This document shows positions 19,801-63,864 of a stretch of 64,000 bases of DNA, one piece after another; positions within the stretch are counted from its first letter, which is position 1; the number at the start of each line of letters is the position of its first letter. The position numbers and the translations under genes are program-made. The notes under the pieces were generated by a model. It saw only the letters and a list, made by a program, of their open reading frames with translations. It was not told where the DNA came from and did no database searches. This DNA comes from Liolophura sinensis (lineage: Eukaryota; Mollusca; Polyplacophora; Chitonida; Chitonidae), in NCBI RefSeq assembly GCF_032854445.1, contig NC_088295.1, positions 94,297,805 through 94,361,804 of the forward strand, in the 5' to 3' direction.

Positions 19801-22800
19801 CCGTTTTAATCGTTGTGTTAGTGTCCGAGCCATGGACACTCGATTTGCCACTTCTCCAGACAGAGTTAGGAAGTCCAGGAGTTCGGAACTGGTGTTCTGA
19901 AGGTACACAGCTTTCGCTTTTGCTCTAATGCTAGACACAGCTTCCTCCAGATCAGATAACAGAGACTGACGGCCAAGATCGTCAGGGTTCAGGTAAGGCA
20001 TCAACTCAGATTTCAGACACTGCAACGTTTTCTCACAAACTTGGATGATGACAAGTAAACTTTCCAAAACCGGTGGATAATCCTTCGCTGACAGTGTATT
20101 GTTATCCCTCTGTAATCTGCCAGTGAAGTACGCAGGATTTGTGTTGGAGAAGGTCAAGTTACCAACAGCTGCTGTTTTGTCCAGCAAAGTGCCATCGGCC
20201 GAAACTTTCAGAAAGACTCCCTCTGGGTTAGACTCTGCACCACATGTATGCCTCGTAGCTCCTAGGGAAGAGAAGATTGAAAAGACTCCAAGCTTTGTAT
20301 CACGCTGATTACACATAATATACATGCGTTAGGTATGTACATCATGCACGAAACTGTCAGAACTATCTGTTACACAGTTCTAAAAGTTAAAAATGTTTTA
20401 AAAGTTTACAACCTTTAATAGTAATTGCAGCAAAATATTGGCATTAACATTTAACAAGTATTATTAGCAGCGATTTTACAATCATTTACGATGGTAAAAA
20501 TGGTCACGTTCAGAGGATATTCACGTACTATGTATTTATGTACCTCTTATTCCTGTTGATAGCACTGATGCCACCTTCCCTGGAGAAGTCATCTGTAGTT
20601 TATGTTGTGTACCCAGCAATGTCATGTTCAACACCATCCTTAAATTGTCTTCCAGGAAAACTAAAGTATCAAAATAATAGCCAAGAACTTGTGCTAAAAC
20701 CTAAAACAAAAAGAACAATAAGATATTGGCAAAGCAAAACAATTCACTTAGAAATAGTATGGATAAAATGCATAAAGAATATATCTTATATATTTAGAAC
20801 ATATTTCAAGACCTTTCTTAATACATGTAAAAACAACTACAACACCTGAGTAAGATCACTCTCCGTACGGCACAGCTGTACAAAACACACAGCCACAACA
20901 CAAGAGAAAGATCATTGGCAACAAGGTACACCTGCACAAAACACACAGCTACAACACGTGGGAAAGGTCACTGGCAACAAGGTACACTTGTACAAACACA
21001 CACAGCTACAACACCTGAGGAAGATCAATGGCAACAAGGTACACCTGCACAAAACACACAGCTACAACACCTGAGGAAGATCAATGGCAACAAGGTACAC
21101 CTGCACAAAACACACAGCTACAACACGTGGGAAAGGTCACTGGCAACAAGGTACACTTGTACAAACACACACAGCTACAACACCTGAGGAAGATCAATGG
21201 CAACAAGGTACACCTGCACAAAACACACAGCTACAACACCTGAGGAAGATCAATGGCAATAAGGTACACCTGCACAAAACACACAGCTACAATATGTGGG
21301 AAAGGTCACTGGCAACAAGGCACACGTGCACAACACAAACATCTACAACACCTGAGGAAGATCACTGGCTGCCAGGTACACCTGGGCAGAAGAGCTCAGA
21401 GACAGCCTGGATTCCACATCTCCTAATGTCACATCCATGGACAGCCACACAGAAGGGTCTGGTGAAACACTGTCAACACAAAAGTACATACAGTGATGGA
21501 GATCTGTGTAGAATATCCAGACGTATAATTCATTACACCATGCAAAGTCTACAATTAAAATGATACATTTATACACATTAATGCCACATACAGTCATGTT
21601 ACTGTAAGCATCAACCTACAGATGTCATACAATTAATTACTGAACCTTAAAAATTACTGTCTTAATCACGGATGTCCATTTAAAGGGAAATTAGTATCCA
21701 GGGTCGGAGCTAGTTTGTGTTTTGTAGGCCACAATGTTACACATGGCACATGATGAAGGCTAGTGTTTCCTCTACCTGAGGTTGAACATTCTTGCTCCGT
21801 CCCAGAGTGGTGCTTGGGCGCTCCAGGTTTGAGGTAGAGAGCCTGTGAGGGACAAGGCCAGACCCCTCAGACTGACGTCCAGCCCAGTGCCGTGTTTGAA
21901 CGCTCGCATGATCTGCAGCTGTTTCAGGGAAGCACGTGTCTGCTTCGGGAAGGTGATGGCAAACAGGTCATGTCTTTCCCCTGGTTCGTTGAGCAGGATA
22001 CAGTACTCCTGGGTGTGAGTTGTACGAGGAAGGTCCACTACCTGTCCGTAAAGCCAGAGCCGTGGGGGATCAGTGAAGCGCAGGACGTAGTACAGCCCTT
22101 TCTCTCTCACAGGTAACCCAGCGCATGCTACAATCTGCTGAGTCAGGTAACCTGGGATCAGCATCGGGTGAAACATGCCCAGAAAGGACAAAGCACCCTC
22201 TGCTGGTGACACAGATATCCAGGGAGGTAATCTGGAGGCGACAGAGAGGAGTAAGCTGTTGTACAGACTCCGCTTTTCCTCCAGGATGTTCAGATCGTCA
22301 GGTTGAAGGTCTAGCGCTGCACACCTTGGGTGGGTTGTCTCCCCTGTTTCCCAGCCAAGGAAGGGCTTCCTGAAAGAGCTGAGAGGGCCGAGGACAAGCT
22401 GCTGTGCCTCCTTCACCACCTCCAGGCCCCTGAGGAACAGCGGGATAGTTGGGTGATCCCTGTACTGGAGTACAACCACCCCCTGGCTGAAGAAAACTCG
22501 CTCCATCCCCCTAACCTGGTACCATGGGGATGTAGACAGGAAGCTGAGGTGATGCTGAGGCACGCCGTTCTCTCTCGATACAACCTGTGTCATGTCCAGT
22601 CTGTAACAGCCCAGCGGAAGTTGGTGGTCATACAGTCGCTGCCGCACAAAGATGTCCCCGGCGTAGACGGTGCTGAGGACAGGCTGTGGGAAGTGGTCAG
22701 CATCTGGTCCAGCCAGAGAAAAGGTGAGGGGATAGATGCCAGATGTGTCGGTCCTGATCAACAGGTACTCCTTTGTCATAGGTGCCTTTAGTGTGACATT

Positions 22801-25800
22801 CTCAGGTGTGATTATCAGGTGTTCCATTACCTGGCTGAGCACAGTCACAGACTGGCTGGGCCGGGCTATGACTGGCACCTTTCCCGCAGATGAGGACACA
22901 CGTACAGGTATGTGGGAGGGGATATCCACAGCAGGGTCCGAACATGTGGGACCTCTAAAGCCAGTGCCCTCACAATCACAGGTGTAGTCTGGGAAAAGAG
23001 TCTTGCAGTACCCTCCATTCTCACAAGGGCATGACGCTGAAATACATTAGTTTGATACTGAACTGACTGATGGAAGACTTATTCAGAAGGTGACAGGAAC
23101 AGATGGGACTCTTTAATAAATCAGGGCTGGTTGTATTACATTACGCAAACTTTATTTTATCCAAAACAAACGCCCATAAGATTTCTGGTAGTCATGCAGC
23201 TGCCAAAAGTTTCAGCTTTACAAAGTTTGATAAATACCTTGAACACGTTGTAACGCCAAGCTGGTAGGAAGTCATAGCTTCATCATGACAGCTCACTTAC
23301 CTACACAATGCAGGCCGTCATCATGCAGGTACCTGCCCTCAGGACAAGCACACACATCACCTTTGTCCTCACACACTGACCAACAGTTGAGGTCTGACCC
23401 CTTATCAACACACCCTACCGACACAATACACACATTTCAACCAATGACAGGAATTTGTTAACGGGCTAAAGAAATCATAAGCCTCTAAAGGATTCTGTCG
23501 CCTGCTTTCTGTTTATTATTACATACATGTGAACATCACCTGACTAAATTTATTTGTTTATTTATTTGATCGGTGTTTTATGCCGTACTCAAGAATATTT
23601 CACTTATACGACAGCGGCCAGCATTATGGTGGGAGGAAACCGGGCAGAGCCCGGGGGAAACCTACGACCATCCGCAGGTTGCTGACAGACCACCTGACTA
23701 AAATTCACATACATGATAGACAAATTATCTGTTCAAGTTAATGGATACCTTATTTGTGAACATTTTTGGCAAAATTATAAACAACTGAAGACTTAATTCA
23801 TGCCATAAGATCCCCTTAATTCCACGCAGTTCAGTATTTAGTTGTTTCAATACTTACACTGACAAGATCTCATGCTCTCTAGAAGTTCAATACTTATACT
23901 GACAAGATCATATGTTCTCTAGAAGTTCGATACTTATATTGACAAGATCTCATGCTCTCTAGAAGTTCAATACTTATATTGACAAGATCTCATGCTCTCT
24001 AGAAGTTCGATACTTATGCTGACAAGATCTCATGCTCTCTAGAAGTTCAATACTTATACTGACAAGATCATATGTTCTCTAGAAGTTCGATACTTATACT
24101 GACAAGATCTCATGCTCTGTAGAAGTTCAATACTTATACTGACAAGATCTCATGCTCTCTAGAAGTTCAATACTTATACTGACAAGATCTCATGTTCTCT
24201 AGAAGTTCAATACTTACACTGACAAGATCTCATGTTCTCTAGAAGTTCAATACTTATACTGACAAGATCTCATGCTCTCTAGAAGTTCAATACTTATGCT
24301 GACAAGATCTCATGCTCTGTAGAAGTTCAATACTTATACTGACAAGATCTCATGTTCTCTAGAAGTTCAATACTTATACTGACAAGATCCCATGTTCTCT
24401 AGAAGTTCGATAATTATACTGACAAGAACTCATGTTCTCTAGAAGTTCGATACTTGTACTGATAAGATCTCATGTTCTCCAGCAGTTAAATACTCACACT
24501 GACAAGATCTCAAGTCCTCCAGCAGTTCAAACCTGTTCATACATTTACAGTAGTAGGAGCTGATGGTGTTTACACAGATCTGAGCACAGTTACCATTGTT
24601 CACAGTACACTCATCAAAGTCTGCAATTAAACAGTTATGTGAGATAATATTAACACTTGACAAGTTATCTAATTACATCCCATTATAGCTTTCAGAAATA
24701 CCTTAATGTAGGCGCTAGATGGATTGCGGAAAAGTAAACCGTACCAGTTGTGGGTGGTGACACGAGATGATCAGCGCTTAAACAAGAAAATTCTGTTTCA
24801 CGATTTTCAAGCCTTGGCCAATCCACACCCTGTCACAAATTCTGGACGATAATATAGTTACACTACCACTTTCTGACCTTCACAGAATCCCTCAGTGCTA
24901 CGACTGAAGCCTAGCAGACATTCACAGGACAACCCGGTGATAGAGTTTACACAACGCAGTGAGGCAGGACATCCGCCATTGTTAAACACACATGGGTCTT
25001 CCTCTGAAACAGAGATAAATGCAGCATAACGGCTTGAAAAATGTGACGCAGGTATAGCCACATAGAAACTCAAGATTTATTTATTTGATTGGTGTTTTAC
25101 GCCGTTCACAAAAATATTTCATTGATACGACGACGGCTGGCCAGTATTGTGGTGGGAGGAAGCCGGGCAGAGCTTGGGGGAAACCCACGACGATCCGCAG
25201 TTTGCTGGAAGACAACCAAAAGCTCACCAATAGCTCACTCCCAGCCAGCTTCTGGCATGCCACTGTTCAGTGCCGAGAGACCACTGGTGTGGCCTGTGGC
25301 CATTCACATTTGTGGCCAGTTTCTGTGGAGAACTCTTTCCAGTGAACCACAACCATACTTGAGACACAGTACAAACAAACCACTGGCACGCTAGTGACCT
25401 GGCACAAAGTTACTTGTTTTCTGCATTTGTATAGTTACAATCTAAGGTTATCCAATCTTGCAACAGGTCAGCCCACCTCGTCCACCTCCAAACACACTAC
25501 AGGGACGTACTTATGCAAGATCTGCCATCTGTAGCCAGGTTGTACTCCTCGTCGCAGCTGCACAGGAACGAGCCCTCTGTGTTGTTACAGTGTTGATGAC
25601 AGGGGTAGGGCCAGCGACCACACTCGTCAATATCTGAAAATAACCACAGCAAAGAATACTTCTGTTTGCATTAAGACCGAAAAAAGAATACAACCACTGC
25701 TATGATGGCGTCTTCCTGGCAAACAAAGGACATGAACGCACTATCTCTGCTACTTTCCCCCAAACTGCATGTAACTGGACATTTTCTGTCAAATAATTAA

Positions 25801-52800: not shown

Positions 52801-55800
52801 CCTGAACAACATCATGAGCATGCTTGTCAATAAGAAGTCGGTCAAGTATTAACTCACCTTCACATCCCGGACTGGAGTACCCATCTAAGCAGGAACAAGC
52901 CCCCGGGGCAGTACAGTCACCCTGATTGGGGCAGGTTCCTGGCCTTTCCCCAAAACACAGCGCTGAAAACCACACGGCTGCCATTTGTACCCATGTCATT
53001 CACATTATCATTCACAGGTACATGTGTTTCTCTCTGGACATTGTAAGAATTGTACCAGAGTACTGATTCATTACATCGCATTCTCAAAGTGTTGGATTTA
53101 TTTGATTTGGTCGACGGCGGCCAGCATTATGGTGGCAGGAAACCGGGCAGGGTCCGGGGAGAAAACCACGAAAACCAGTTGCTGGTTGCTGGCAGACCTT
53201 CCCACGTACGGCTGGAGAGGAAGCCAGCATAAGCTGGAATCACATCGACGGCATGGAAGAGTAGCTCCTGTGCCACTGCGACGCGCTGACGTGCTAACGA
53301 TCTCGGCCACGGAGGCCGTTTCCAAGTGTTTGAAAACAATTCATGTTTAAATACTTTATAATGAAGGGCCCAGTCCCTATCACTAAAGCGTTGAGGCCGC
53401 ATGTGCGTGTGATGTCTAACTACAGAGACCAGTCTTAAATCACCAATAAAGTGTAGGGAAAATATGACATCAAGTTCTTCCTGCAGATCGGGAAATATGT
53501 AGTAGACCACGCAGAGGAAACAAACACCCACTTGTTACAGAAATGGAGAAGGGTTCTCCAAGGAACACATCTGTCATGTCTATAGTGGTCAATGTATGTT
53601 TGGTATTGTTTACCTTATCAGCAATGCAATCACAGGGAGAAAAGCATGCCTTTCGAATATAGTGGAAATAAATGGTTTCTTGCCACGATAAATATTTATT
53701 AGCATAAATAACAACCATATGTAGGTGTTTTGAGTGTGGAACTGACAGTGGCGACATCCCCAATATACATGCTATTCACACTAATACCCTACTAATTGCG
53801 CGACATCCCGTGGCTCAGTCGGTTAGCATGTTAGCTCAGCGTAATGACCCAGGAGTCTCTCACCAATGCGGTCGCTGTGAGTTCAAGTCCATATCATGCT
53901 GGCTTCCTCTCCGGCTGTACGTGAGAAGGTCTGCCAACAACCTGCGGATGGTCGTGGGTTTCTCCCGGGCTCTGCCCAGTTTCCTCCCACCATAATGCTG
54001 ACAGCCGTCGTACAAGTGAAATATTCTTGAGTACGGCGTAAAACACCAATCAAATAAATAAAAACTTATAATTGCACGACATCCCCAATATACATGCTAT
54101 TCACACTAATACCCTACTAATTGCGCGACATCCCCAATATACATGTTATTCACACTAATACTCTACTAATTGCGCGACATCCCCAACATACATGCTATGC
54201 ACAATTATACCCTACTAATCGCGCAACATCCACAATATACATGCTACTCAACTAATACCCTACTAATTGCGCGACACCCCCAATATACATGCTATTCACA
54301 CTAATACCCTACTAATTGCGCGACATCCCCAATATACATGTTATTCACACTAATACTCTACTAATTGCGCGACATCCCCAACATACATGCTATGCACAAT
54401 TATACCCTACTAATCGCGCAACATCCCCAATATACATGCTACTCAACTAATACCCTACTAATTGCGCGACACCCCCAATATACATGCTATTCACACTAAT
54501 ACCCTACTAATCGCGCAACATCCCCAATATACATGCTATTCACACTATTACCCTACTAATTGCGCGACATCCCCAATATAAATGCTACTCAACTAATACC
54601 CTACTAATTGCGCGACACCCCCAATATACATGCTATTCACACTAATACCCTACTAATTGCGCGACACCCCCAATATACATGCTATTCACACTATTTCCCT
54701 ACCAATCGCGCGACATCCCCAATATACATGTTATTCATACTAATACCCTACTAACTGCGCGACATTTCCAATATACATGCTATTCAACTAATACTCTATT
54801 AATCACGCGACATTTCCAATATACATGCTATTCACACTAATACCCTAATTATTGCCCGACATCCCCAATATACATGCTATTCAACTAATACCCTACTAAT
54901 TGCGCAACACCCCCCAATATGCATGCTATTCACACTAATACCCTACTAATTGTGCGACATCCCCAATATACATGCTATTCACACCAATACCCTACTAATT
55001 GTGCGACATCCCCAATTTACATGCTATTCACACCAATACCCTACCAATCGCGCGACATCCCCAATATACATGCTATTCACACTAATACCCTACCAATCGC
55101 GCGACATCCCCAATATACATGCTATTCACACTGATACACTACCAATCGCGTGATATTTCCAGTATACATGCTATTCAACTAATACTTTATTAATCGCGCG
55201 GCATCCCCAATATACATGCTATTCAACTAATACCCTACTAATTGTGCGACATCCCCACTATACATGCTATTCACACTAATACCCTACCAATCGCGCGACA
55301 TCCCCAATATACATGCTATTCACACTGATACACTACCAATCGCGTGATATTTCCAGTATACATGCTATTCAACTAATACTTTATTAATCGCGCGGCATCC
55401 CCAATATACATGCTATTCAACTAATACACTACTAATTCCGCGACATCCCCAATATACATGTTATTCACACTAATACCCTACTAATTGCGCGACATCCCCA
55501 ACATACATGCTATTCACAATTATACCCTACTAATCGCACGACATTTCCAATATACATGCTATTCAACTGATACCCTACTAATTGCGCGACATTTCCAATA
55601 TACATGCTATTCACACTAATACCCTACTAATTGCGCAACACCCTCAATATACATGCTTCTTCAACTAATACCCTACTAATTGCGCGACACCCCCAATATA
55701 CATGCTATTCACACTAATATCCTACTAATCGCGCGACATTTCCAATATACATGCTATTCAACTAACACCCTACTTATTGCGCGACACCCCCAATATACAT

Positions 55801-58800
55801 GCTATTCACATCAATACCCTACTATTCGCGCGACATTCCCAATATACATGCTATTCAACTAGCACCCTACTTATTGCGCGACACCCCCAATATACATGCT
55901 ATTTACACTAATACCCTACTAATCGCGCGACATTCCCAATACACACCAATACCCTAATAATCATTTATTATGAAGTCCTTCAGTGTCACAAGTAGCTTAT
56001 CCATGTAATCATTCAAACAGACAGTATACTTACGTTTACACTCCGTGTCTGTGAGTGACTTGCCAAAGCCGTCTTTCTCACACATGCAGTAATAGGAGCC
56101 AGGTAAGTTGACACATTCCAAGTTACAGCCACCATTGTCAGTACCACACTCATCAATGTCTGCAGGAGAAACATACAGCCTGTTATGTGGGCCTACATAC
56201 CTTCACCGTGCAGTATTAAATCTGTCTATGTAGTTCTAGAGTGTTTTGTTTTACATAATATATCTTATCTTTACTTATACCTATTTACCCTTACACTCTG
56301 TCATCAACTTTACACTCAATCTCCTCGAGTACATTGTCTTTTCTTTATACTAAATGAAGTTACAATGATTTTGCACCCAAGAAGGACCTATATGTATAAG
56401 ATGCCTTACCTTTACACAAAATCATGTTTCCCACTTTATTATCATCACAAAGTCTACCATTCATATCACATTAACTACATCCTTTCTTTATAATGAATTG
56501 TCTTTATAATGGTATTTCTCACCACTGAACCATCTACATATATATTAAGATGCTTTACCTTTACAATCATCCGCCGAATCATAGCCTTCCATGCAAAGAC
56601 ATACGCCAGGTGAGACGCAGGAACCTCCGTTAGGACAGACTCCAGGTGCATGATACTGACACACGGCTACAAGCAGAACAGACATCTCAGAGACAGATAT
56701 CTACTGTCAGATACTGACACACGGCTACAAGTAGAACACACAGCTGAGAGATAGATATCTACAGTCCGAAAATTACAAAGGGTTACAAGCAGAACAGACA
56801 GGTGAGAGACAGACATCTCCTGTCAGATACTGACACACGGCTACAAGTAGAACAGACAACTGAATCTGACAGATGTCTACAGGCAGACACTGACACACGA
56901 CTGCAAGCAGAGCAGACAGCTGAGAGACAGATATCTACAGTCAGATACTGACACACGACTACAAGCAGAACAGACAGCTGAGAGACAGATATCTACAGTC
57001 CGAAAATTACAAAGGGTTACAAGCAGAACAGACAGGTGAGAGACAGACATCTACAGTCAGATACTGACACACGACTACAAGCAGAACAGACAGCTGAGAG
57101 ACAGATATCTACAGTCCGAAAATTACAAAGGGTTACAAGCAGAACAGACAGCTGAGAGACAGACATCTACAGTCAGATACTGACACACGACTACAAGCAG
57201 AACAGACAGCTGAGAGACAGATATCTACAGTCCGAAAATTACAAAGGGTTACAAGCAGAACAGACAGGTGAGAGACAGACATCTACAGTCAGATACTGAC
57301 ACACGGCTACAAGCAGAACAGACAGCTGAGAGACAGATATCTACAGTCCGAAAATTACAAAGGGTTTCTAGCAGAACAGACAGGTGAGAGACAGATATCT
57401 ACAGTCAGATACTGACACACGACTACAAGCAGAACAGACAGATGAGAGACAGATATCTACAGACAGATACTGACACACGACTGCAAGCAGAGCAGACAGC
57501 TGAGAGACAGATATCTACAGTCAGATACTGTCACACCTCTGCAAGCAGAACAGACAGCTGAGAGACAGATATCTACAGTCAGATACTGACACACGGCTAC
57601 AAGCAGAAGAGACAGTTGAGAGAAAGATATCTACAGTCCGAAAATTACAAAGGGTTACAAGCAGAACAGACAGCTGAGAGACAGATATCTACAGTCAGAT
57701 ACTGTCACACCTCTGCAAGTAGAACAGACAGCTGAGAGACAGATATCTACAGACAGATACTGACACACGACTACAAGAACAGACAGCTGAGAGACAGATA
57801 TCTACAGTCCAAAAATTACAAAGGGTTACAAGCAGAACAGACAGCTGAGAGACAGATATCTACAGGCAGACACTGACACACGACTGCAAGCAGAGCAGAC
57901 AGCTGAAAGACAGATATCTACAGACAGATACTGACACACGACTGCAAGCAGAGCAGACAGCTGAGAGACAGATATCTACAGTCAGATACTGTCACACCTC
58001 TGCAAGCAGAACAGACAGCTGAGAGACAGATATCTACAGACAGATACTGACACACGGCTACAAGCAGAAGAGACAGTTGAGAGAAAGATATCTACTGTCA
58101 GATACTGACACACGGCTAAAAGCAGAACACACAGCTGACAACTGAGACTGACAGACATCTACAGTCAGGTGCTGACACAGGGCTACAAGAAGAGCAGGTA
58201 ACTGAGACTGACAGACATCTACAGCCAGATACTGACATAGAGTTACATGTACAAGCAAATCAGACAACTGAGTCTGACAGACATTTACAGTCAGATACAG
58301 ACAAAGGGTTTCAAGCAGAACACACAGCTGAGACTGATAAATACCTACAGTCAGATAATGACACAGGGCTTCAAGCAGAACACATAACTGAGACTGATAA
58401 ATACCTACAGTCAGATAATGACGCAGGGTTTCAAGCAGAACACATGACTGAGACTGACAGATACCTACAGTAAGATACTGACACAGGGTTACAAGCAGAA
58501 ACAGACAACTAAGACTCACAGACATCTAGTCAGATACTGACACAGGGCTACAAGAAGAACAGACAACTTAGACTTACAGACATCTGTAAAGAAACGTGTT
58601 TATTTATTTGTTTCTCTGTAGTCTCAGTTTGTTTCACGTATATGTAAATGAGACAAGCCTTCAATCAGAACAGGGGCGGACAACTATAAAGCTTAATCTG
58701 ATCTCTACAAAAGGGCGTGTCCATTTCACGGGAAACAAAGTCCCACGTCTGCTTTCTTCAGGTTGACGTGAACAGCGATCGGCGTTACGTTTGGTTGGCG

Positions 58801-61800: not shown

Positions 61801-63864
61801 TTTCCATACAGAATAGAAAGATGTATACATAGAATAGAAGGTATCCATACAATATACAAGATATTCATATAAAATGTAAATATCCATACAGAATACAAGA
61901 TGTCCATACAGAATACAAGATATCCATATAGAACACAAGATATCAAAATAAAATAAATAAAATACAATTTATCCACATAGATGTTCTACAGGAAGAACAC
62001 GGAAACAATGTGTACAGTCAGTGTTCCTTGACAGACTGCTGGCAATAGTAGAACTCAAAAGAGGATACTTTTTGCACTAATCTAACCATTCCCAGCACAA
62101 GTTAGAAATGTCCTCAACACGAGTAGGAAGTATTCTCAATGCGAGTAACAAACATCCTCAACATGAGTGTACAAACGAGAGAGGTTGTTTCTAGGCACAA
62201 GTCACACAGCTAATATTTAGTTAAGTAATATTTAAATCCTTCATGAATTTCAAGATATACAATGTCAGCAATATACAACTGTTCAAACGTCCAGGTAAAT
62301 ACTAATAGATCTAATCTTGATAATATATATCAACCAACATAGCTTGCGTGACAAACACTGATTGTATAATGTGACCCGCTTTATCTGAGGTCTGCTTTGA
62401 ACCCTCACCTGAGGTCTGTTTTGAACCTTCACCTGAGGTCTGCTTTGAATCCTCACCTGAGCAATCCGGAATCTTGAAACCTGCACTGCACTGACACACT
62501 CCTGGACGTAAACATGACCCTCCGTTAGGGCACTGCCCATGGGGCAGGTCAAAACAGGAGGCTACAATAAAAGACTTTGGCGATTAAACGCAATATGAAA
62601 GCATTTTTCATTAACTTAGCTTTTTCCCCACATTATCCCACCACAGCGGTTAAATGTATAAAAATATAAATACGCTACTAAATATTCCCCAGACACAATT
62701 TCACCCATGTACATGGACACCTATAACACTGGAATTCCCCACATACAATTTCACCCATGTACACGGACACCTATAACACTGGATTTCCCCACATACAATT
62801 TCACCCATGTACACGGACACCTATAACACTGGATTTCCCCACATACAATTTCACCCATGTACACGGACACCTATAACACCGGATTTCCCCACATACAATT
62901 TTACCCATGTACACGGACATCTATAACACTGGATTTCCCCACATACAATTTCACCCATGTACACGGACACCTATAACACCGGATTTCCCCACATACAATT
63001 TCACCCATGTACACGGACACCTATAACACTGGATTTCCCCACATACAATTTCACCCATGTACACGGACACCTATAACCTATTATCAGATTCGTACTTACT
63101 TATATGATGCATCTTTAAAGAAGAATGAGAAAATCTTCATATTTTGGTCTAACTATAGGGCAAGTAAGTTAACAATAGTTAGCCAAATACAACACAAGTT
63201 ATGTGATAACATTTTGGTCTAACTACAAGAAGACCATAGTTTGGTCTAATTACAAGACAAGTCATGTGACCAAGTTTTGCTCTAACTATAAGACAAGGTA
63301 TGTGACCACATGTTGGTCCAACTACGAGACGAGTTGTGTGACCATAGTTTGGTCTAACTACAAGACAAGCCAGGTGACCAAGCTTTGCTCTAACTATAAG
63401 ACAAGGTATGTGACCACGTTTTGCTCTGATTACGAGACAAATATCTGACCATATTTTGGCAGAGACAGCTGATGACAAACTTACGTTTACACTGGAAATC
63501 CATGGCATCCCACATGTAACCTTGCCGGCAGTCACAGAAGTAAGAGCCATCCGTGTTGTGGCATCCCAGTTCACAGATATCGGGTTTTGTGCACTCGTTA
63601 TAATCTGAATGGAAAAAATCGAAACAGATTTGATACCGGCATACCAAAAGATTGTGGCATCAAGTGCTTCCAGTCCTTTTTTTTTCGCATAACTTAGCAT
63701 CTTTCAATTCATGCAGGTTTTCATCAACATAAAAATTTTGCAAGAGCGGTCAGACTTACCATCACATATGGGTGGAACATAACCATGTTTGCATTGGCAA
63801 GACTCAGGTGAAATACAAGTCCCATCATTCGGGCAGTTCCCAGGGGGCAACATGAAACAAAGGG
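13580..63864 (-). CDS. Gene model: large EGF-repeat/Ig/FN3 cell-surface protein, 35 exons seen, 5' end off the window
   Basis: Joined exons e1 to e35 give about 9.05 kb of coding sequence. EGF exons begin and end in phase 1, so they can be duplicated or skipped without shifting the frame. Domain order: 28 EGF modules, a further EGF with a long unknown domain, linkers, a 1,231-residue region with two Ig domains, FN3, one transmembrane helix, and a tail of about 50 residues. The part seen carries many N-glycosylation sequons and paired cysteines, as expected for an ectodomain. The calcium-binding EGF chain suggests a rod-like adhesion or receptor protein, but I do not recognise an orthologue. 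The signal peptide and N-terminus lie beyond 64000. One junction (e34 to e35) does not match in phase, so at least one small exon is probably missing from this model. Confidence 0.8.
13985..15000. repeat. 18-bp minisatellite, about 56 copies, in the e34-e35 intron
   Basis: The unit is 'gtataacggcataccagt' with c/t and a/t variants. Read on the coding (minus) strand many units contain CAG or CTG followed by GTATGC, which resembles a splice donor. Because 18 is a multiple of three, repeating frames such as YTGMPL run for hundreds of codons. They are not genes. Confidence 0.93.
15216..15401 (-). CDS. Exon e34: second half of an FN3 domain
   Basis: Phase 1 to phase 1, 186 bp. It follows e33 to give [15 protein letters not shown] and [20 protein letters not shown], then [17 protein letters not shown]. 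The G-Y-x-V, Y-x-L and Y-x-V-x-x-x-A pattern is the C to G strand half of a fibronectin type III fold. One NVT sequon is visible. It ends TETPRS-G at a GTAGGC donor. Confidence 0.82.
15689..15940 (-). mobile_element. tRNA-headed SINE, family A, near full length
   Basis: On the minus strand the head reads 'ggtggccgaggtggttagcg', an A-box-like tRNA start. The family body ('gcagggatctgcccgat' region, then 'catacaagtgaaacattct') follows and it ends in an AT-rich tail. It sits in the intron between e33 and e34 and is diverged from the family consensus. Confidence 0.8.
16190..16327 (-). CDS. Exon e33: first half of an FN3 domain
   Basis: Phase 1 to 1, 138 bp. After e32 it reads [15 protein letters not shown], then [20 protein letters not shown] and VNGMSFVKG. 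The W-N-P-P-x-N-G sequence is the B-C strand hallmark of FN3 domains, completed by e34. An NLT sequon is present. The acceptor is preceded by 'ttgttatttccag' and the donor is GTAGGT. Confidence 0.82.
16569..20261 (-). CDS. Exon e32: giant 3.7-kb exon with unknown region and two Ig domains
   Basis: One open frame of 1,231 codons, phase 1 at both ends (acceptor 'cttctcttccctag', donor GTAAGC). Roughly residues 1-900 match no family I recognise. They are mostly helical with a cysteine cluster near residue 455 ([13 protein letters not shown]) and a charged, coiled-coil-like stretch near 540-580 ([23 protein letters not shown]). Two Ig domains follow. The first, about residues 914-990, has VDLSCPVRV, a central W and DTGSYTCTV. 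The second, about 990-1075, has VRVDCG, VWKTN and [11 protein letters not shown]. The last 155 residues hold a further cysteine-paired region ([13 protein letters not shown]). At least eleven N-x-S/T sequons support an extracellular location. An exon this long beside 105-130 bp exons suggests a retrocopied or independently acquired segment. Confidence 0.85.
17030..17520 (-). other. Two tandem Ig domains inside e32
   Basis: Each domain shows the B-strand cysteine, the C-strand tryptophan and the F-strand Y-x-C (SYTC and IYRC), as in I-set or C2-set folds. They lie directly before the linker to the FN3 domain, giving the Ig-Ig-FN3-TM order common in adhesion receptors. Confidence 0.85.
20544..20700 (-). 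CDS. Exon e31: linker exon
   Basis: Phase 0 to phase 1, 157 bp. A very good acceptor ('attgttctttttgttttag') is followed by [20 protein letters not shown] and [20 protein letters not shown], ending STGIR-G at a GTACAT donor. The phases fit e30 and e32 exactly. No domain is recognised. It may be an amphipathic continuation of the helical region at the start of e32. Confidence 0.68.
20880..21352. repeat. 56-bp array made from the end and donor of e30, about 8 copies
   Basis: The minus-strand unit contains 'caggtgtaccttgttgccat' and 'tgatcttcctcaggtgttgt'. The exon end reads 'caggtgtacctggcagccag' and then 'tgatcttcctcag', followed by the donor GTGTTG. The array starts at the junction itself, so it arose by tandem duplication of the exon-intron border. 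Confidence 0.85.
21352..21469 (-). CDS. Exon e30: linker exon
   Basis: Phase 2 to 0, 118 bp. It reads [20 protein letters not shown] and [20 protein letters not shown], joining e29 (phase 2) and e31 (phase 0). The donor is weak (CAG then GTGTTG). An alternative donor (CAG then GTGTAC) lies 30 bp earlier at 21382, also in phase 0, so skipping ten residues is possible. The exon end is repeated about eight times in the following intron. Confidence 0.68.
21776..23036 (-). CDS. Exon e29: EGF module plus unrecognised domain of about 390 residues
   Basis: Phase 1 to 2, 1,261 bp. It begins [18 protein letters not shown] and [14 protein letters not shown], a complete six-cysteine EGF. About 390 residues follow that I cannot assign: [32 protein letters not shown], and others. 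The pattern is beta-rich, with few cysteines ([28 protein letters not shown]). The donor is CTCAG then GTAGAG. It links the EGF chain to the Ig-containing part and might be a membrane-distal globular head or a ligand-binding module. That is only a guess from position. Confidence 0.82.
23301..23414 (-). CDS. Exon e28: EGF-like module
   Basis: Phase 1 to 1, 114 bp. It reads [19 protein letters not shown] then [19 protein letters not shown], with six cysteines. It lacks the D-x-D-E-C start, so it is probably not calcium-binding at the N-terminal site. The spacing C-x8-C-x3-C is that of the cbEGF relatives in LDL-receptor type proteins. Acceptor ends 'gtcggtag', donor GTAAGT. Confidence 0.82.
   Translation of the reverse strand, partial: GVLIRGQTSTVGQCVRTKVMCVLVLRAGTCMMTACIV
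23548..23692 (-). mobile_element. SINE family A, 5'-truncated
   Basis: The tail ('tttatttatttgatcggtgt') and body ('actcaagaatatttcactta', 'aggaaaccgggcagagcccg') are present, while the tRNA-like head is missing. It lies in the e27-e28 intron. Confidence 0.85.
23860..24497. repeat. 40-bp array made from the end and donor of e27, about 16 copies
   Basis: The exon end on the minus strand is 'gaactgctggaggacttgag' then 'atcttgtcagt', followed by donor GTGAGT. The units read 'gaacttctagagaacatgag' then 'atcttgtcagtataagtatt'. The array begins at the donor. The donor GT is intact only in the first copy; later copies have lost it (GTGAGT became ATAAGT). Confidence 0.9.
24498..24620 (-). CDS. Exon e27: calcium-binding EGF
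   Basis: Phase 1 to 1, 123 bp. [16 protein letters not shown] then [11 protein letters not shown], with six cysteines and the C-x-N-x4-Y-x-C site for Asn hydroxylation. It ends [11 protein letters not shown] at TGTCAGT then GTGAGT. Its last 30 bases and donor are the source of the 40-bp array that follows. Confidence 0.85.
24878..25003 (-). CDS. Exon e26: EGF-like module
   Basis: Phase 1 to 1, 126 bp. [18 protein letters not shown] then [15 protein letters not shown] and STEGFCEG, with six cysteines. The acidic E-E-D-P-C start resembles cbEGF linkers of the LRP type, but the hydroxylation consensus is absent. The donor is the less common GTCAGA. Confidence 0.8.
25074..25230 (-). mobile_element. 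SINE family A, partial
   Basis: Tail 'atttatttgattggtgtttt' and body 'ggaagccgggcagagcttgg' are present. The sequence after 25230 diverges from the family and I cannot follow the head. It lies in the e25-e26 intron. Confidence 0.8.
25511..25633 (-). CDS. Exon e25: calcium-binding EGF
   Basis: Phase 1 to 1, 123 bp. [16 protein letters not shown] then [15 protein letters not shown], six cysteines, Asn-hydroxylation consensus and an overlapping NNT glycosylation sequon. The donor is A then GTACGT, without the usual AG before GT. Confidence 0.82.
   Translation of the reverse strand: MLTSVVAGPTPVINTVTTQRARSCAAATRSTTWLQMADLA
25850..27825. repeat. 50-bp minisatellite, about 39 copies
   Basis: The unit contains 'catgaactacatgtaccttc' and 'accacagattgcctacatac'. 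It fills the intron between e24 and e25, starting only a few bases after the e24 donor, but contains no exon sequence. Diverged units lie at the e24 side and more uniform ones in the middle. Confidence 0.93.
27830..27952 (-). CDS. Exon e24: calcium-binding EGF
   Basis: Phase 1 to 1, 123 bp. [16 protein letters not shown] then [18 protein letters not shown], six cysteines and the C-x-N-x4-F-x-C hydroxylation site. Donor GTAAGT. Confidence 0.85.
28130..28234 (-). CDS. Exon e23: EGF module of the 35-residue class
   Basis: Phase 1 to 1, 105 bp. [17 protein letters not shown] then [17 protein letters not shown]. Six cysteines in the P-G-x-C-x-x-x-G-x-C pattern shared with e1, e3, e5 and others. 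Good acceptor ('cttttctgcag') and donor GTAAAC. Confidence 0.85.
28545..29105. repeat. 50-bp minisatellite, about 11 copies
   Basis: The unit is 'ctaaacagacaggtgcatat' then 'aacatgtaaactgtactgac'. Copies are nearly identical. It lies in the e22-e23 intron and contains no exon sequence. Confidence 0.95.
29180..29299 (-). CDS. Exon e22: calcium-binding EGF
   Basis: Phase 1 to 1, 120 bp. [16 protein letters not shown] then [16 protein letters not shown], six cysteines and the C-x-N-x4-Y-x-C site. The last loop is short and glycine-rich (GVGAGGLC). With e20 and e21 it forms a run of three cbEGFs that breaks the alternation seen in e1-e20. Confidence 0.85.
29390..29545. repeat. Short 'acacaagttat' tandem repeats
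   Basis: About ten degenerate units of 10 to 20 bp ('tacacaagttacatgtatac'). They adjoin the 21-bp array in the e21-e22 intron. Confidence 0.7.
29555..30600. repeat. 21-bp minisatellite, about 50 copies
   Basis: The unit is 'catgttgacatgacacacag' plus c. It runs from seven bases after the e21 donor into the intron, without exon sequence. Since 21 is a multiple of three, long spurious frames with repeats such as CHVSMCCVS appear on the minus strand. Confidence 0.93.
30616..30738 (-). CDS. Exon e21: calcium-binding EGF
   Basis: Phase 1 to 1, 123 bp. [16 protein letters not shown] then [18 protein letters not shown], six cysteines, C-x-N-x4-F-x-C. Donor GTAAGT. Confidence 0.85.
31041..31163 (-). 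CDS. Exon e20: calcium-binding EGF
   Basis: Phase 1 to 1, 123 bp. [16 protein letters not shown] then [19 protein letters not shown], six cysteines, C-x-N-x4-F-x-C. It is the last member of the alternating EGF/cbEGF series. Confidence 0.85.
31527..31631 (-). CDS. Exon e19: EGF module of the 35-residue class
   Basis: Phase 1 to 1, 105 bp. [17 protein letters not shown] then [19 protein letters not shown], six cysteines. Very like e23 (A-x-C-Y-D-F-P start). The donor is GTCAGT rather than GTRAGT. Confidence 0.83.
31745..33130. repeat. 59-bp minisatellite, about 23 copies
   Basis: The unit contains 'tacacttaagctgtaggagt' and 'cctgtgaagatttcagtaca'. It lies in the e18-e19 intron and has no exon sequence. 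Confidence 0.93.
33290..33409 (-). CDS. Exon e18: calcium-binding EGF
   Basis: Phase 1 to 1, 120 bp. [18 protein letters not shown] then [19 protein letters not shown], six cysteines, with an unusually short C2-C3 gap (C-L-G-C), and C-x-N-x4-Y-x-C intact. NLS near the end is a sequon. Just past the donor, 33247-33285 holds a worn copy of part of the exon end. Confidence 0.83.
33430..34715. other. Degenerate AT-rich intron sequence with loose repeats
   Basis: Irregular repeats around 'tttttcgttattca', 'ttcagtaacatg' and 'atggtgctagc' recur at 50-110 bp spacing from 33700 to 34710. They look like an old, decayed tandem array. A worn SINE family A remnant lies at 33755-33845. No exon is seen. 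Confidence 0.55.
33755..33845 (-). mobile_element. Worn SINE family A fragment
   Basis: 'ttatttgattagtgttttac' and 'ctcaagaatgagggcggcca' match the family A tail and body with many changes. Confidence 0.6.
34720..38701. repeat. 30-bp array made from the end and donor of e17, about 130 copies
   Basis: The minus-strand unit is 'gattcagcccaccactctgt' then 'gcaggtgagg'. The end of e17 is 'gattcagcccaccactctgt' then 'acag', followed by donor GTGAGT, so each unit carries 20-odd bases of exon plus the splice donor. Most units keep CAG then GTGAGT or GTGAGG. Subtypes recur in blocks: a 27-bp unit with 'acagttgtgggct' next to a 'tgtccaaagtgg' unit occurs near 35060, 35330, 36200 and 36990, so there is higher-order structure. 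Confidence 0.95.
38702..38809 (-). CDS. Exon e17: EGF module whose end seeded the 30-bp array
   Basis: Phase 1 to 1, 108 bp. [18 protein letters not shown] then [19 protein letters not shown], six cysteines. The donor (ACAG then GTGAGT) is the first of about 130 similar donors. In the exon's frame the first intronic unit gives G-E-stop (GGT GAG TGA), so use of any later donor would end translation early. Confidence 0.87.
39046..39174 (-). CDS. Exon e16: cbEGF-like module missing two cysteines
   Basis: Phase 1 to 1, 129 bp. [17 protein letters not shown] then [20 protein letters not shown], ending GESLEKG. Only four of the six EGF cysteines are present; C5 and C6 are missing. The tail GYGRLPG is shared with e12, which lacks the same two cysteines. 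Donor GTAATT. Either a variant fold or one in which the last disulfide is lost. Confidence 0.78.
39478..39730 (+). mobile_element. SINE family A, near full length
   Basis: Head region with 'aagggttagtgcgccaccat' and 'gtgcggtcacagtgagtttc', body 'ggtctgccggcaacctgcag', end 'cgtaaaacaccaatgaaata' with an AT tail. Opposite in strand to the gene, in the e15-e16 intron. Confidence 0.82.
39850..40790. repeat. 33-36 bp degenerate minisatellite, about 27 copies
   Basis: The unit contains 'cttacaaaatcacctcagac' and 'aactgttattcaccc'. It starts about 45 bp after the e15 donor and holds no obvious exon sequence. Confidence 0.88.
40835..40939 (-). CDS. Exon e15: EGF module of the 35-residue class
   Basis: Phase 1 to 1, 105 bp. 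[17 protein letters not shown] then [19 protein letters not shown], six cysteines. Acceptor 'ttcattttttgtag', donor GTGAGG. Confidence 0.86.
40975..42765. repeat. 55-bp minisatellite, about 33 copies
   Basis: The unit contains 'gacctggagatacacaatgg' and 'ctgtacatgtacaaggtcag'. It begins about 35 bp upstream of the e15 acceptor. On the coding strand each unit has 'gtgtatctccag', an acceptor-like end, but no exon sequence. Confidence 0.92.
42945..44465. repeat. 79-bp minisatellite with G-runs, about 19 copies
   Basis: The unit contains 'catggtggaagaaagcacaa' and 'ctcatacatgtagttggggg'. Runs of G at the unit junctions grow to 10-18 bases in the copies near 44110-44320, so the array has developed poly(G) tracts. 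Confidence 0.93.
44845..45400. repeat. 44-bp and related tandem repeats, about 13 copies
   Basis: Four near-identical 44-bp copies ('aggtgtgaaccgtcatcttg' then 'ggtgccagaaggagaggata') are followed by shorter 30-40 bp relatives ('ggtgtaaactgtcac'). They lie in the e14-e15 intron. Confidence 0.88.
45559..45678 (-). CDS. Exon e14: calcium-binding EGF
   Basis: Phase 1 to 1, 120 bp. [15 protein letters not shown] then [18 protein letters not shown], six cysteines, C-x-N-x4-Y-x-C. Donor GTAAGC. Confidence 0.86.
45705..45806. repeat. 26-bp tandem repeat, 4 copies
   Basis: The unit is 'aactggactgggcatggagc' plus 'aatgtc'. It lies 25 bp upstream of the e14 acceptor and contains no exon sequence. Confidence 0.9.
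46161..46271 (-). CDS. Exon e13: EGF module of the 35-residue class
   Basis: Phase 1 to 1, 111 bp. [17 protein letters not shown] then [19 protein letters not shown] and VG, six cysteines, with two extra residues in the last loop. Acceptor ends 'tttctgtgggtag', donor GTAAGG. Confidence 0.85.
46300..47930. other. Intron sequence without features
   Basis: AT-rich, no tandem array, no exon with splice support. The minus-strand frame at 47513-47836 has no recognisable motif. This is one of the few long repeat-free intron stretches of the gene. Confidence 0.5.
47930..48088 (+). mobile_element. SINE family A, 5'-truncated
   Basis: Body 'atggtcgtgggtttctcccc' and end 'ttgagtatgacgtaaaacac' with an AT tail. 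The tRNA-like head is absent. Opposite strand to the gene. Confidence 0.82.
48105..48550. repeat. Compound 60-120 bp tandem repeat, about 5 copies
   Basis: Units join 'agaagcttaaccttcaatc' with 'cccattatatagcagc' and 'cacacaataccttagattag'. The last two full copies (48290-48540) are almost identical. Confidence 0.85.
48718..48843 (-). CDS. Exon e12: cbEGF-like module missing two cysteines
   Basis: Phase 1 to 1, 126 bp. [16 protein letters not shown] then [20 protein letters not shown] and GQDKER. The calcium-binding start and C-x-N-x4-Y-x-C are kept, but only four cysteines remain. C5 and C6 are lost, as in e16, and both share GYGRLPG. Donor GTAAGG. Confidence 0.78.
48885..49435. repeat. About 55-bp tandem repeat interrupted by a SINE
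   Basis: The unit contains 'cagataacatcatatcaggt' and 'aactttacacctgtcacaca'. The array is split by a SINE at 49176-49305 and resumes after it, so the insertion is younger than the array. Confidence 0.88.
49176..49305 (-). mobile_element. SINE family A, 5'-truncated, inserted in a tandem array
   Basis: Tail 'tttatttatttcattggtgt' and body 'cgacggcggccagcattatg' are well preserved. The flanking sequence on both sides is the 55-bp array. Confidence 0.87.
49440..50460. repeat. 42-bp array made from the end and donor of e11, about 24 copies
   Basis: The minus-strand unit is 'ggttatgaactgcccaagtg' then 'ctcag' and then 'gtgagtcctatctacat'. The end of e11 is exactly 'ggttatgaactgcccaagtg' then 'ctcag' with donor GTGAGT. 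Nearly all units keep CAG then GTGAGT. In the exon frame the first units read [14 protein letters not shown] without a stop. Confidence 0.95.
50461..50565 (-). CDS. Exon e11: EGF module whose end seeded the 42-bp array
   Basis: Phase 1 to 1, 105 bp. [17 protein letters not shown] then [19 protein letters not shown], six cysteines. Donor CTCAG then GTGAGT. Equivalent in-frame donors follow at 50419 and 50377. Use of these would add one or two 14-residue blocks, each with an extra cysteine, to the end of this EGF. Confidence 0.87.
50690..51447. repeat. 28-bp array made from the end and donor of e10, about 27 copies
   Basis: The minus-strand unit is 'acagagctgtcagtgtgagt' then 'actttgtt'. The e10 end is 'acacagctgtcaac' followed by donor GTGAGTACTCTGTT. 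The match covers about 14 bases of exon and the donor region. The array starts at the junction. A C-run (50648-50666) lies at its far end. Confidence 0.88.
51448..51570 (-). CDS. Exon e10: calcium-binding EGF with arrays on both sides
   Basis: Phase 1 to 1, 123 bp. [16 protein letters not shown] then [18 protein letters not shown], six cysteines. The hydroxylation site has H instead of Y/F ([10 protein letters not shown]). Its start seeded the 43-bp array upstream and its end the 28-bp array downstream. Confidence 0.87.
51571..52290. repeat. 43-bp array made from the acceptor and start of e10, about 17 copies
   Basis: The minus-strand unit is 'gggtttgtgtttcag' then 'atgtgaatgagtgtgctgta' and 'gacattgg'. 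The true exon begins after 'ggggtttgtgtttcag' with 'atatagacgagtgtgctgta' and 'gacaatgg'. Each unit thus carries an acceptor and about 28 bases of exon coding D-V-N-E-C-A-V-D. Confidence 0.93.
52300..52690. repeat. 54-60 bp tandem repeat, about 7 copies
   Basis: The unit contains 'gatcatgtgtacctgtaggt' and 'cgattagtccagctggtcta'. It adjoins the acceptor-derived array but shows no exon sequence. Confidence 0.92.
52858..52962 (-). CDS. Exon e9: EGF module of the 35-residue class
   Basis: Phase 1 to 1, 105 bp. [17 protein letters not shown] then [19 protein letters not shown], six cysteines. Donor GTGAGT. Confidence 0.86.
53092..53320 (-). mobile_element. SINE family A with tRNA-like head
   Basis: On the minus strand the head reads 'ccgtggccgagatcgttagc' and the body includes 'gctggcttcctctccagccg'. 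The 3' end is shortened ('gaccaaatcaaataaat') and lacks the usual 'acttgagtacggcg' stretch. Confidence 0.82.
53749..55950. repeat. 49-bp minisatellite, about 39 copies, split by a SINE
   Basis: The unit is 'actaataccctactaattgc' then 'gcgacatccccaatatacat' and 'gctattcac'. One and a half units lie at 53749-53805, then a full SINE, then the rest from 54064. Blocks of several units are repeated (53749 onward resembles 54280 onward), so there is higher-order duplication. Confidence 0.93.
53806..54062 (+). mobile_element. SINE family A, full length
   Basis: The most complete copy in the window. A-box-like 'tggctcagtcggttagcat', B-box-like 'gtgagttcaagtcc', body 'cctgcggatggtcgtgggtt', and end 'gagtacggcgtaaaacacca' with 'aaataaataaaa' tail. 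The sequences at either end ('aattgcgcgacatccc' and 'aattgcacgacatccc') look like a 16-bp target duplication, though array units themselves could explain them. Confidence 0.92.
56034..56159 (-). CDS. Exon e8: calcium-binding EGF
   Basis: Phase 1 to 1, 126 bp. [16 protein letters not shown] then [18 protein letters not shown], six cysteines, C-x-N-x4-Y-x-C. Acceptor 'tttctcctgcag', donor GTAAGT. Confidence 0.87.
56559..56666 (-). CDS. Exon e7: EGF module whose start seeded an acceptor array
   Basis: Phase 1 to 1, 108 bp. [17 protein letters not shown] then [18 protein letters not shown] and KG, six cysteines. The acceptor ('ctgttctgcttgtag') and the first 14 exon bases (CCGTGTGTCAGTAT) recur many times upstream. 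Confidence 0.86.
56667..58580. repeat. About 58-bp array made from the acceptor and start of e7, about 30 copies
   Basis: One minus-strand unit type is 'tgttctgcttgtag' then 'tcgtgtgtcagtatctgact', which repeats the acceptor and start of e7. A second type replaces the exon part with 'ccctttgtaattttcggact'. The two types are mixed. Units beyond 58100 are more diverged. Confidence 0.9.
58590..59310. other. Intron sequence without features
   Basis: Unique, mixed composition sequence with a short GC-rich part at 58660-58860. The minus-strand frame 58661-58879 has no splice support or recognisable motif. Confidence 0.45.
59322..59447 (-). CDS. Exon e6: calcium-binding EGF
   Basis: Phase 1 to 1, 126 bp. 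[17 protein letters not shown] then [18 protein letters not shown], six cysteines, C-x-N-x4-Y-x-C. Starts almost identically to e4 (DIDECSAD). Donor GTAAGT. Confidence 0.87.
59520..59870 (-). mobile_element. SINE family B, near full length
   Basis: On the minus strand the head reads 'ccggcccggatagcacagtt' with 'ggtagagcgtccgcttcggg', then 'gaggaagttgtaacttcatc'. It ends 'gagtacgacgttaaacccca' with 'cactcactcac'. Same family as 8772-9145. It lies in the e5-e6 intron. Confidence 0.88.
60103..60207 (-). CDS. Exon e5: EGF module of the 35-residue class
   Basis: Phase 1 to 1, 105 bp. [17 protein letters not shown] then [19 protein letters not shown], six cysteines. Donor GTAAAA. Confidence 0.87.
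60240..61345. repeat. 31-bp minisatellite, about 35 copies
   Basis: The unit is 'acaggtacactaattgtacg' then 'atcatgccttt'. It fills nearly the whole e4-e5 intron but contains no exon sequence. On the plus strand each unit has 'ctttacag', which is acceptor-like but on the wrong strand for this gene. Confidence 0.94.
61359..61481 (-). CDS. Exon e4: calcium-binding EGF
   Basis: Phase 1 to 1, 123 bp. [16 protein letters not shown] then [18 protein letters not shown], six cysteines, C-x-N-x4-Y-x-C. Very like e2 and e6. Donor GTGAGT. Confidence 0.87.
61500..61975. repeat. Degenerate 15-31 bp AT-rich repeat
   Basis: Units such as 'tccatacagaatagaaagat' and 'tccatatagaacacaagata' vary in length. 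The array lies just upstream of the e4 acceptor and has no exon sequence. Confidence 0.8.
62385..62457. repeat. 24-bp repeat made around the e3 donor, 3 copies
   Basis: On the minus strand the donor is followed by three units of 'gtgaggattcaaagcagacc' plus 'tcag'. Two units end in a new donor (boundaries 62433 and 62409), while the third ends in CAG then ATAAAG. All are in frame with e3 and read [16 protein letters not shown]. Confidence 0.9.
62457..62561 (-). CDS. Exon e3: EGF module with three alternative donors
   Basis: Phase 1 to 1, 105 bp. [17 protein letters not shown] then [19 protein letters not shown], six cysteines. Donor CTCAG then GTGAGG. Two further in-frame donors 24 and 48 bases on would add 8 or 16 residues of polar linker. 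Confidence 0.87.
62690..63078. repeat. 50-bp minisatellite, about 8 copies
   Basis: The unit is 'acacctataacactggattt' then 'ccccacatacaatttcaccc'. Copies are nearly identical. e2-e3 intron, no exon sequence. Confidence 0.95.
63130..63450. repeat. About 27-bp degenerate minisatellite, about 12 copies
   Basis: Units join 'ggtctaactacaagacaag' with 'catgtgaccaagttttg'. e2-e3 intron, starting about 30 bp after the e2 donor, no exon sequence. Confidence 0.85.
63485..63604 (-). CDS. Exon e2: calcium-binding EGF
   Basis: Phase 1 to 1, 120 bp. [15 protein letters not shown] then [18 protein letters not shown], six cysteines, D-x-N-E-C start and C-x-N-x4-Y-x-C site. Acceptor 'ttttttccattcag', donor GTAAGT. 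Confidence 0.87.
63760..63864 (-). CDS. Exon e1: EGF module of the 35-residue class (first exon in the window)
   Basis: Phase 1 to 1, 105 bp. [17 protein letters not shown] then [19 protein letters not shown], six cysteines. Acceptor 'ctatcacattttcag', donor GTAAGT. It starts in phase 1, so earlier exons must lie beyond 64000. Confidence 0.87.

Follow-up and report, generated by a model that had tools for sequence, protein, structure and literature searches.

Minisatellites at exon–intron borders in an EGF-repeat gene and in other genes of the chiton Liolophura sinensis

Tandem repeats that run across exon–intron borders have been described in amphioxus Adh3, where they were named "mirages", and in the globins BflGb6 and BflGb9 (PMC3087553). 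Their units measure 10–72 bp in Adh3 and 150–160 bp in the globins, and the accessible part of that report describes regular splicing together with an unstable repeat length. Further amphioxus genes with mirages are PGBD5, which carries imperfect ones, and TnC (PMC3902484, accessible part). The available part of PMC2812944 describes variable minisatellites that lie at exon–intron boundaries of human segmentally duplicated genes and are reported to create new introns and splicing patterns; human introns derived from tandem arrays are, going by the portion available, the subject of a published work. A model by Rogers from 1989 explains intron gain through tandem duplication of AG/GT-bearing segments (as cited in the accessible part of PMC3087553). 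An earlier note on the DNA analysed here knew of no described gene with repeatedly amplified borders; the amphioxus and human cases are such precedents. For molluscs, a limited literature search covering titles and abstract starts gave no border minisatellites that we recognised among the matches listed, and the accessible part of a chiton genome comparison (PMC12005716) does not mention tandem repeats or minisatellites.

We analysed a stretch of 64,000 nucleotides from the chiton Liolophura sinensis, referred to as the window. The assembly (GCA_032854445.1) was published as Liolophura japonica (PMC11068029, accessible part) and the name was later corrected to L. sinensis (PMC12441733). The order of the mitochondrial genes is an arrangement typical of molluscs and speaks against amphioxus as the source of the DNA. 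An EGF HMM scan combined with splice sites gave a gene model of 31 exons, the 5' end of which may lie beyond the window. Exons e1–e28 each hold one EGF-like unit, and all 28 have a length divisible by 3 and the symmetric phase 1-1. The exon numbers of the earlier note fit this model, and the interval given there ends at 62561, the position at which e3 begins. The gene and its last three exons are placed as follows:

16498–63864, minus strand: EGF-repeat gene, 31 exons
23036–21776, minus strand: exon e29
21469–21352, minus strand: exon e30, with a weak donor (PWM score 0.7) and an uncertain 3' end
20261–16498, minus strand: exon e31, a 3.8-kb long terminal exon with Ig-like domains

A strong donor site was looked for at e30 and not found (PWM score 0.7); the exon may have another 3' end, or a small exon may have been missed before e31. 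The open reading frame holding e31 matches Pfam Ig_3 with E = 4.3e-16. Relatives of e31 with 20–29% identity occupy some 20 further locations on contigs C1, C2, C3 and C10, several of them clustered on C10 (27 matches including e31 itself, some of them fragments). Judging by this similarity they are apparently an expanded gene family.

The introns of the gene consist largely of tandem repeats. TRF detected 30 intronic arrays, which make up 24,563 bp (63%) of the 38,969 bp contained in the 30 introns; after collapsing the arrays the introns are short, 15.6 kb in all. The hexamer ACATGT lies within arrays in 138 of 166 occurrences, while arrays account for half of the bases, and it occurs in 16 of 37 array clusters; such a concentration could result if a few units had been amplified. 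Three open reading frames on the plus strand (25058–25345, 49001–49474 and 52967–53350) have a similar peptide stretch in common and probably represent, judging by that similarity, a dispersed repeat inserted in introns. Outside the modelled gene, several frames of an 18-bp array at 13973–14998 are free of stops over up to 350 aa, and the array might be taken for a coding repeat.

Seven of the 30 arrays enter an exon by at least 15 nt, with a reach of 15–33 nt. An eighth array, at the donor of e10, ends by TRF 47 nt short of the border, and on inspection copies spaced by about 28 nt start from the border itself. The eight arrays are listed below, with the depth into the exon as given by TRF:

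62385–62475, minus strand: array at the donor of e3 (62457–62561), 19 nt deep, unit 24 bp, about 3.8 copies, GT in 2 of 3 copies
56652–58572, minus strand: array at the acceptor of e7 (56559–56666), 15 nt deep, unit 58 bp, about 33 copies, AG in 21 of 32
51543–52291, minus strand: array at the acceptor of e10 (51448–51570), 28 nt deep, unit 43 bp, about 17 copies, AG in 14 of 15
50699–51447, minus strand: array at the donor of e10, unit 28 bp, 50699–51400 by TRF and the rest by inspection, GT in 12 of 25
49426–50486, minus strand: array at the donor of e11 (50461–50565), 26 nt deep, unit 42 bp, about 25 copies, GT in 23 of 24
34717–38730, minus strand: array at the donor of e17 (38702–38809), 29 nt deep, unit 30 bp, about 134 copies over 4 kb, GT in 119 of 133
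23846–24530, minus strand: array at the donor of e27 (24498–24620), 33 nt deep, unit 40 bp, about 17 copies, site mostly lost with AT in 13 of 16
20833–21384, minus strand: array at the 3' end of e30 (21352–21469), 33 nt deep, unit 56 bp, about 10 copies, GT in 7 of 8, exact donor uncertain

Six of these arrays are located at donors and two at acceptors, and their units are 24–58 bp long. The observation that arrays begin at the borders of e3, e7, e10, e11, e17, e27 and e30 thus holds, in seven cases by TRF and for the e10 donor by inspection. Since the eight arrays have eight different units they are of separate origin, and here the earlier note, which had counted at least eight independent events, was right.

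Tandem repeats are a known problem for genome assembly, and arrays of this kind could in principle be repeats that were collapsed or falsely expanded. The coverage of only 14x in PacBio HiFi reads (PMC11068029, accessible part) would fit such an artefact. We nevertheless consider it highly improbable, because the HiFi reads, with a mean of 8.3 kb, exceed every array of the gene (the longest measuring 4 kb). Moreover, the copies are diverged, with a mean identity to the exon copy of 70–93% in the five arrays measured, and border arrays occur eight times in this gene and 14 times in other genes. Exact copy numbers may be wrong. Elsewhere in the assembly, sequence G000:C99 (108,685 bp) contains COX1 seven times head-to-tail at a distance of about 15.5 kb and is probably a concatemer of the mitochondrial genome that arose during assembly.

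We then compared the last or first 40 exon nucleotides at all 60 borders with the exon's own intron, using the 29 other introns as control. Six border arrays show strong matches in comparison to the control maximum: e7 acceptor (15.0 vs 10.0), e10 acceptor (28.5 vs 10.5), e11 donor (30.0 vs 10.0), e17 donor (26.5 vs 10.0), e27 donor (23.0 vs 12.0) and e30 donor (23.0 vs 10.5). The remaining two are weak. The e10 donor is marginal (12.5 vs 11.5), and the e3 donor scores below its control (8.0 vs 10.0), exact sharing being confined to CTCAG beside the border. The claim that each unit holds 12–30 bases of the exon is roughly correct, e3 excepted. The donor of e20, absent from the original set, lies just above its controls (10.5 vs 10.0).

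Apart from their exon content the border arrays could not be told apart statistically from the other arrays of the gene. Medians for the border arrays (n = 8) and for other arrays with a score of at least 100 (n = 19) are 85 and 85% match, 41 and 49 bp unit length, 21 and 12 copies, and 726 and 422 bp array length; with these small numbers none of the differences is significant (Mann-Whitney p = 0.87, 0.65, 0.55 and 0.36, respectively). Nor did we find a general polarity, with copies near the exon being more exon-like, in the five arrays measured: Spearman coefficients are −0.51 for e7 (p = 0.003) and −0.18 for e17 (p = 0.04), while the e10 acceptor, e11 and e27 are not significant.

The copies provide many potential splice sites beside the genuine one, and the earlier note had suggested that selection favours such redundancy. 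Selection might keep the arrays because their copies serve as splice sites in reserve or offer alternative exon ends. Intact GT or AG dinucleotides are indeed common in the copies (e17 119/133, e11 23/24, e10 acceptor 14/15), and by predicted translation the protein would be lengthened in frame by the first copy at e3 (24-bp unit) and by that at e11 (42-bp unit). The new splicing patterns reported for boundary minisatellites of human duplicated genes (PMC2812944, accessible part) point in the same direction. Column conservation in the eight arrays, however, gives no sign of constraint. Ranked among the other columns of the unit, the splice dinucleotide stands at 0.41 for e3, 0.34 for the e7 acceptor, 0.63 for the e10 acceptor, 0.12 for the e10 donor, 0.62 for e11, 0.68 for e17, 0.18 for e27 and 0.35 for e30, i.e. 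without excess over neighbouring columns. The exonic half of the unit decays like the intronic half, with conservation values of 0.88 and 0.85 for the e7 acceptor, 0.915 and 0.927 for the e10 acceptor, 0.811 and 0.82 for the e10 donor, 0.929 and 0.931 for e11, 0.893 and 0.912 for e17, 0.941 and 0.944 for e27, and 0.906 and 0.897 for e30; the exception is the e3 array with its three copies (0.97 and 0.75). Units lacking the site were amplified as well (AT in 13 of 16 copies at e27, AA for AG in 11 of 32 at e7). Because the dinucleotides show no visible constraint, both halves decay about equally and site-less units are amplified, the copies behave as non-coding filler and not as maintained spare sites. 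In addition, the unit length is divisible by 3 in only 3 of 8 arrays of the window and 3 of 14 arrays of the genome sample described below, and the first copy of e17, the largest array, contains an in-frame stop. Selection for spare sites is thus very unlikely.

To relate the placement of the arrays to chance, every array was collapsed to one unit and placed at random within its own intron. With at least 15 exon nucleotides, 7 arrays were observed and 2.75 expected (P(≥7) = 0.014); with at least 5 exon nucleotides 4.06 are expected, giving P(≥7) = 0.094 and P(≥8) = 0.036. The comparison with random placement proposed in the earlier note thus shows an excess at the borders that is clearer at the stricter threshold than at the looser one. 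For at least 15 exon nucleotides the excess in this gene is modest, about 2–2.5 fold over random: borders form a large share of the possible sites because the introns are short once collapsed.

We next asked how frequent such arrays are in other genes of the genome, a check that the earlier note had also called for. The sample comprised 43 loci (278 kb) with many closely spaced exon matches to CCT chaperonins, myosin heads or kinesins; they were chosen by this density before any arrays were inspected. Profile matches used were 46 of 50 for PF00118, 57 of 81 for PF00063 and 74 of 132 for PF00225; the PF00118 matches left out are three at C5 and C6:7942446 and one outside its locus. The PF00133 family, with 24 matches, was judged too sparse and was not used. 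Borders are predicted sites, called near HMM edges by a PWM trained on the EGF-repeat gene, and 83 borders (19 + 23 + 41) without an acceptable splice site were excluded. An array had to enter the exon by at least 9 nt. Thresholds were derived from the CCT and myosin data after inspection and fixed before the kinesin regions were retrieved; a rule limiting the exonic part to one unit plus 12 nt was added together with the kinesin count. Through this rule an apparent border array in L006, reaching 257 nt into a match with an internal stop, was dropped as a wrong exon edge.

Border arrays were found at 14 of 271 resolved borders (5%), namely 4 of 73 in CCT, 7 of 91 in myosin and 3 of 107 in kinesin genes, and in 11 of the 43 loci. 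They are thus not special to the EGF-repeat gene, and unrelated CCT, myosin and kinesin genes contain the same structures. Units are 27–140 bp long, and 4 of the 14 arrays have only about 2–3 copies. Most of the copies are easily recognised: in L006 the end of a CCT exon is present in five near-identical copies, and in L027 the start of a myosin exon has two further copies. Least convincing among the 14 are L041 (site score 3.7, copies 0.52–0.79 identical), L043 (0.56–0.88), L019 (9 nt) and a second donor in L006 with one clear copy lacking GT. A kinesin array in L031, at −7 nt, falls below the threshold and was not counted. TRF arrays occupy 13–16% of the sampled gene regions (L003–L045). In the published repeat table "Other (simple repeat, microsatellite, RNA)" accounts for 0.08% and unclassified repeats for 14.04% (PMC11068029, accessible part); the unclassified class may largely consist of minisatellites.

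Under uniform placement, using the shortest period and the pooled array density, 0.70 border arrays are expected for CCT, 1.22 for myosin and 1.19 for kinesin, 3.1 in all, and 14 observed arrays correspond to a Poisson P = 5e-6. The expectation rises to 4.4 with the best-scoring period and to 5.5 if array density is taken locus by locus (P = 0.0017), so that the excess in the pooled sample is 2.5–4.5 fold depending on the null used. Array starts in the adjacent intron, counted in 60-nt bins out to 300 nt, number 6, 6, 2, 3 and 5 where 5.5 are expected. As these bins are at background, the border stands out. Such numbers could be read as border-targeted birth, with exon–intron junctions of this genome acting as hot spots where tandem duplications arise. 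Conceivable causes include breaks linked to transcription, R-loops, pausing of the polymerase and the shift in base composition where an exon ends. The roughly 2.5-fold excess in the window for at least 15 exon nucleotides, the pooled sample and the background level of the adjacent bins all argue for it. Against it, the kinesin set, for which the thresholds had been set beforehand, is not significant alone (3 vs 1.19 expected, P = 0.12). The CCT and myosin thresholds were chosen after those data had been inspected. Later insertions within the collapsed introns lower the expectation; if they made up as much as 28%, the published repeat content, which may itself include arrays (PMC11068029, accessible part), the excess would drop to about 1.8–3.2 fold by our arithmetic. 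There is no significant preference for donors or acceptors (9 vs 5 in the sample, Fisher p = 0.42; p = 0.13 with the window included). Of the targeted mechanism that the earlier note had put forward, the excess of about 2–4.5 fold, depending on sample and null, stands, and the one replicate with thresholds set beforehand is not significant by itself; as the origin of the arrays we regard it as rather unlikely.

We consider it likely that the arrays are mirage minisatellites, in which a tract straddling the border was duplicated and the array grew on the intron side, close to neutrality. Some tens of bases lying across a border by chance would duplicate in tandem, and the array would then expand on the intron side via slippage or unequal exchange, as known minisatellites and the amphioxus reports suggest. 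In introns so rich in arrays, duplications would begin at many points. Those crossing a border would be tolerated because the exon itself and one full splice site stay intact, those deeper in the exon would be purged by selection, and the exon's own site would, by analogy with the same systems, still be spliced correctly. We favour this neutral account because the border arrays do not differ significantly from other arrays, their copies show no visible constraint and unrelated genes are affected too. The intact splice sites kept in many copies speak against it. Random placement alone yields 2.75–4.06 border arrays in the EGF-repeat gene, and plain neutrality does not account for the border excess (7 vs 2.75 in the window; 14 vs 3.1, 4.4 or 5.5 in the sample). 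What remains may be due to targeted birth, to border arrays persisting for longer or to introns growing after array birth.

A broader proposal would be that borders are hot spots of minisatellite birth in chitons, with about one border in 20 carrying an array of decoy splice sites, and that together with amphioxus this indicates a recurrent border-linked process in animals. We put this forward tentatively, as a possibility with the odds against it; if true, border-linked duplication would provide material from which introns could slide or be gained. Models in which tandem duplication leads to intron gain find a concrete substrate in these arrays, and an exon flanked by up to about 134 decoy splice sites is a natural test of spliceosome site choice. 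Gene annotation can be misled by them, as array copies may read as open, exon-like sequence.

Taken together, the border arrays are a real feature of several gene families and add a case to a known kind, with a moderate border excess that is unexplained. Within the EGF-repeat gene they show no significant difference from ordinary intronic minisatellites in the divergence, length and number of their units or in array length, and they are set apart by a unit that contains exon sequence and a splice site. With the Rogers model, as cited in the accessible text, they have in common that tandem duplication places extra splice sites next to an exon; in contrast to it they sit inside existing introns, and no new intron or exon is seen. 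Human boundary minisatellites likewise lie at exon–intron borders, with units of about 30 bp, but according to the available part of the report these are mainly exon repeats partly spliced out as new introns (PMC2812944), whereas the chiton arrays occupy existing introns, in genes that were not selected for recent duplication. The resemblance to the amphioxus mirages, as far as their accessible descriptions go, is the closest. In both, the unit spans the exon–intron border (in the chiton in 7 of 30 arrays, six of them strong, and at 14 of 271 borders elsewhere), donors as well as acceptors are hit (6 + 2 in the window, 9 + 5 in the sample), and unit lengths are in range (24–58 bp in the window and 27–140 bp in the sample, some falling between the reported ranges). 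AG or GT is retained in many amphioxus copies and likewise in many but not all chiton copies, being mostly lost at e27. Undisturbed splicing and somatic instability are reported for amphioxus; in the chiton gene, e1–e28 keep a consistent phase. The chiton differs in not being a cephalochordate, in having eight such arrays in one gene with up to about 134 copies, and in having been sampled across gene families. Border-spanning minisatellites are thereby now known from a mollusc, far from amphioxus, together with a frequency for one genome of 14 in 271 sampled borders.
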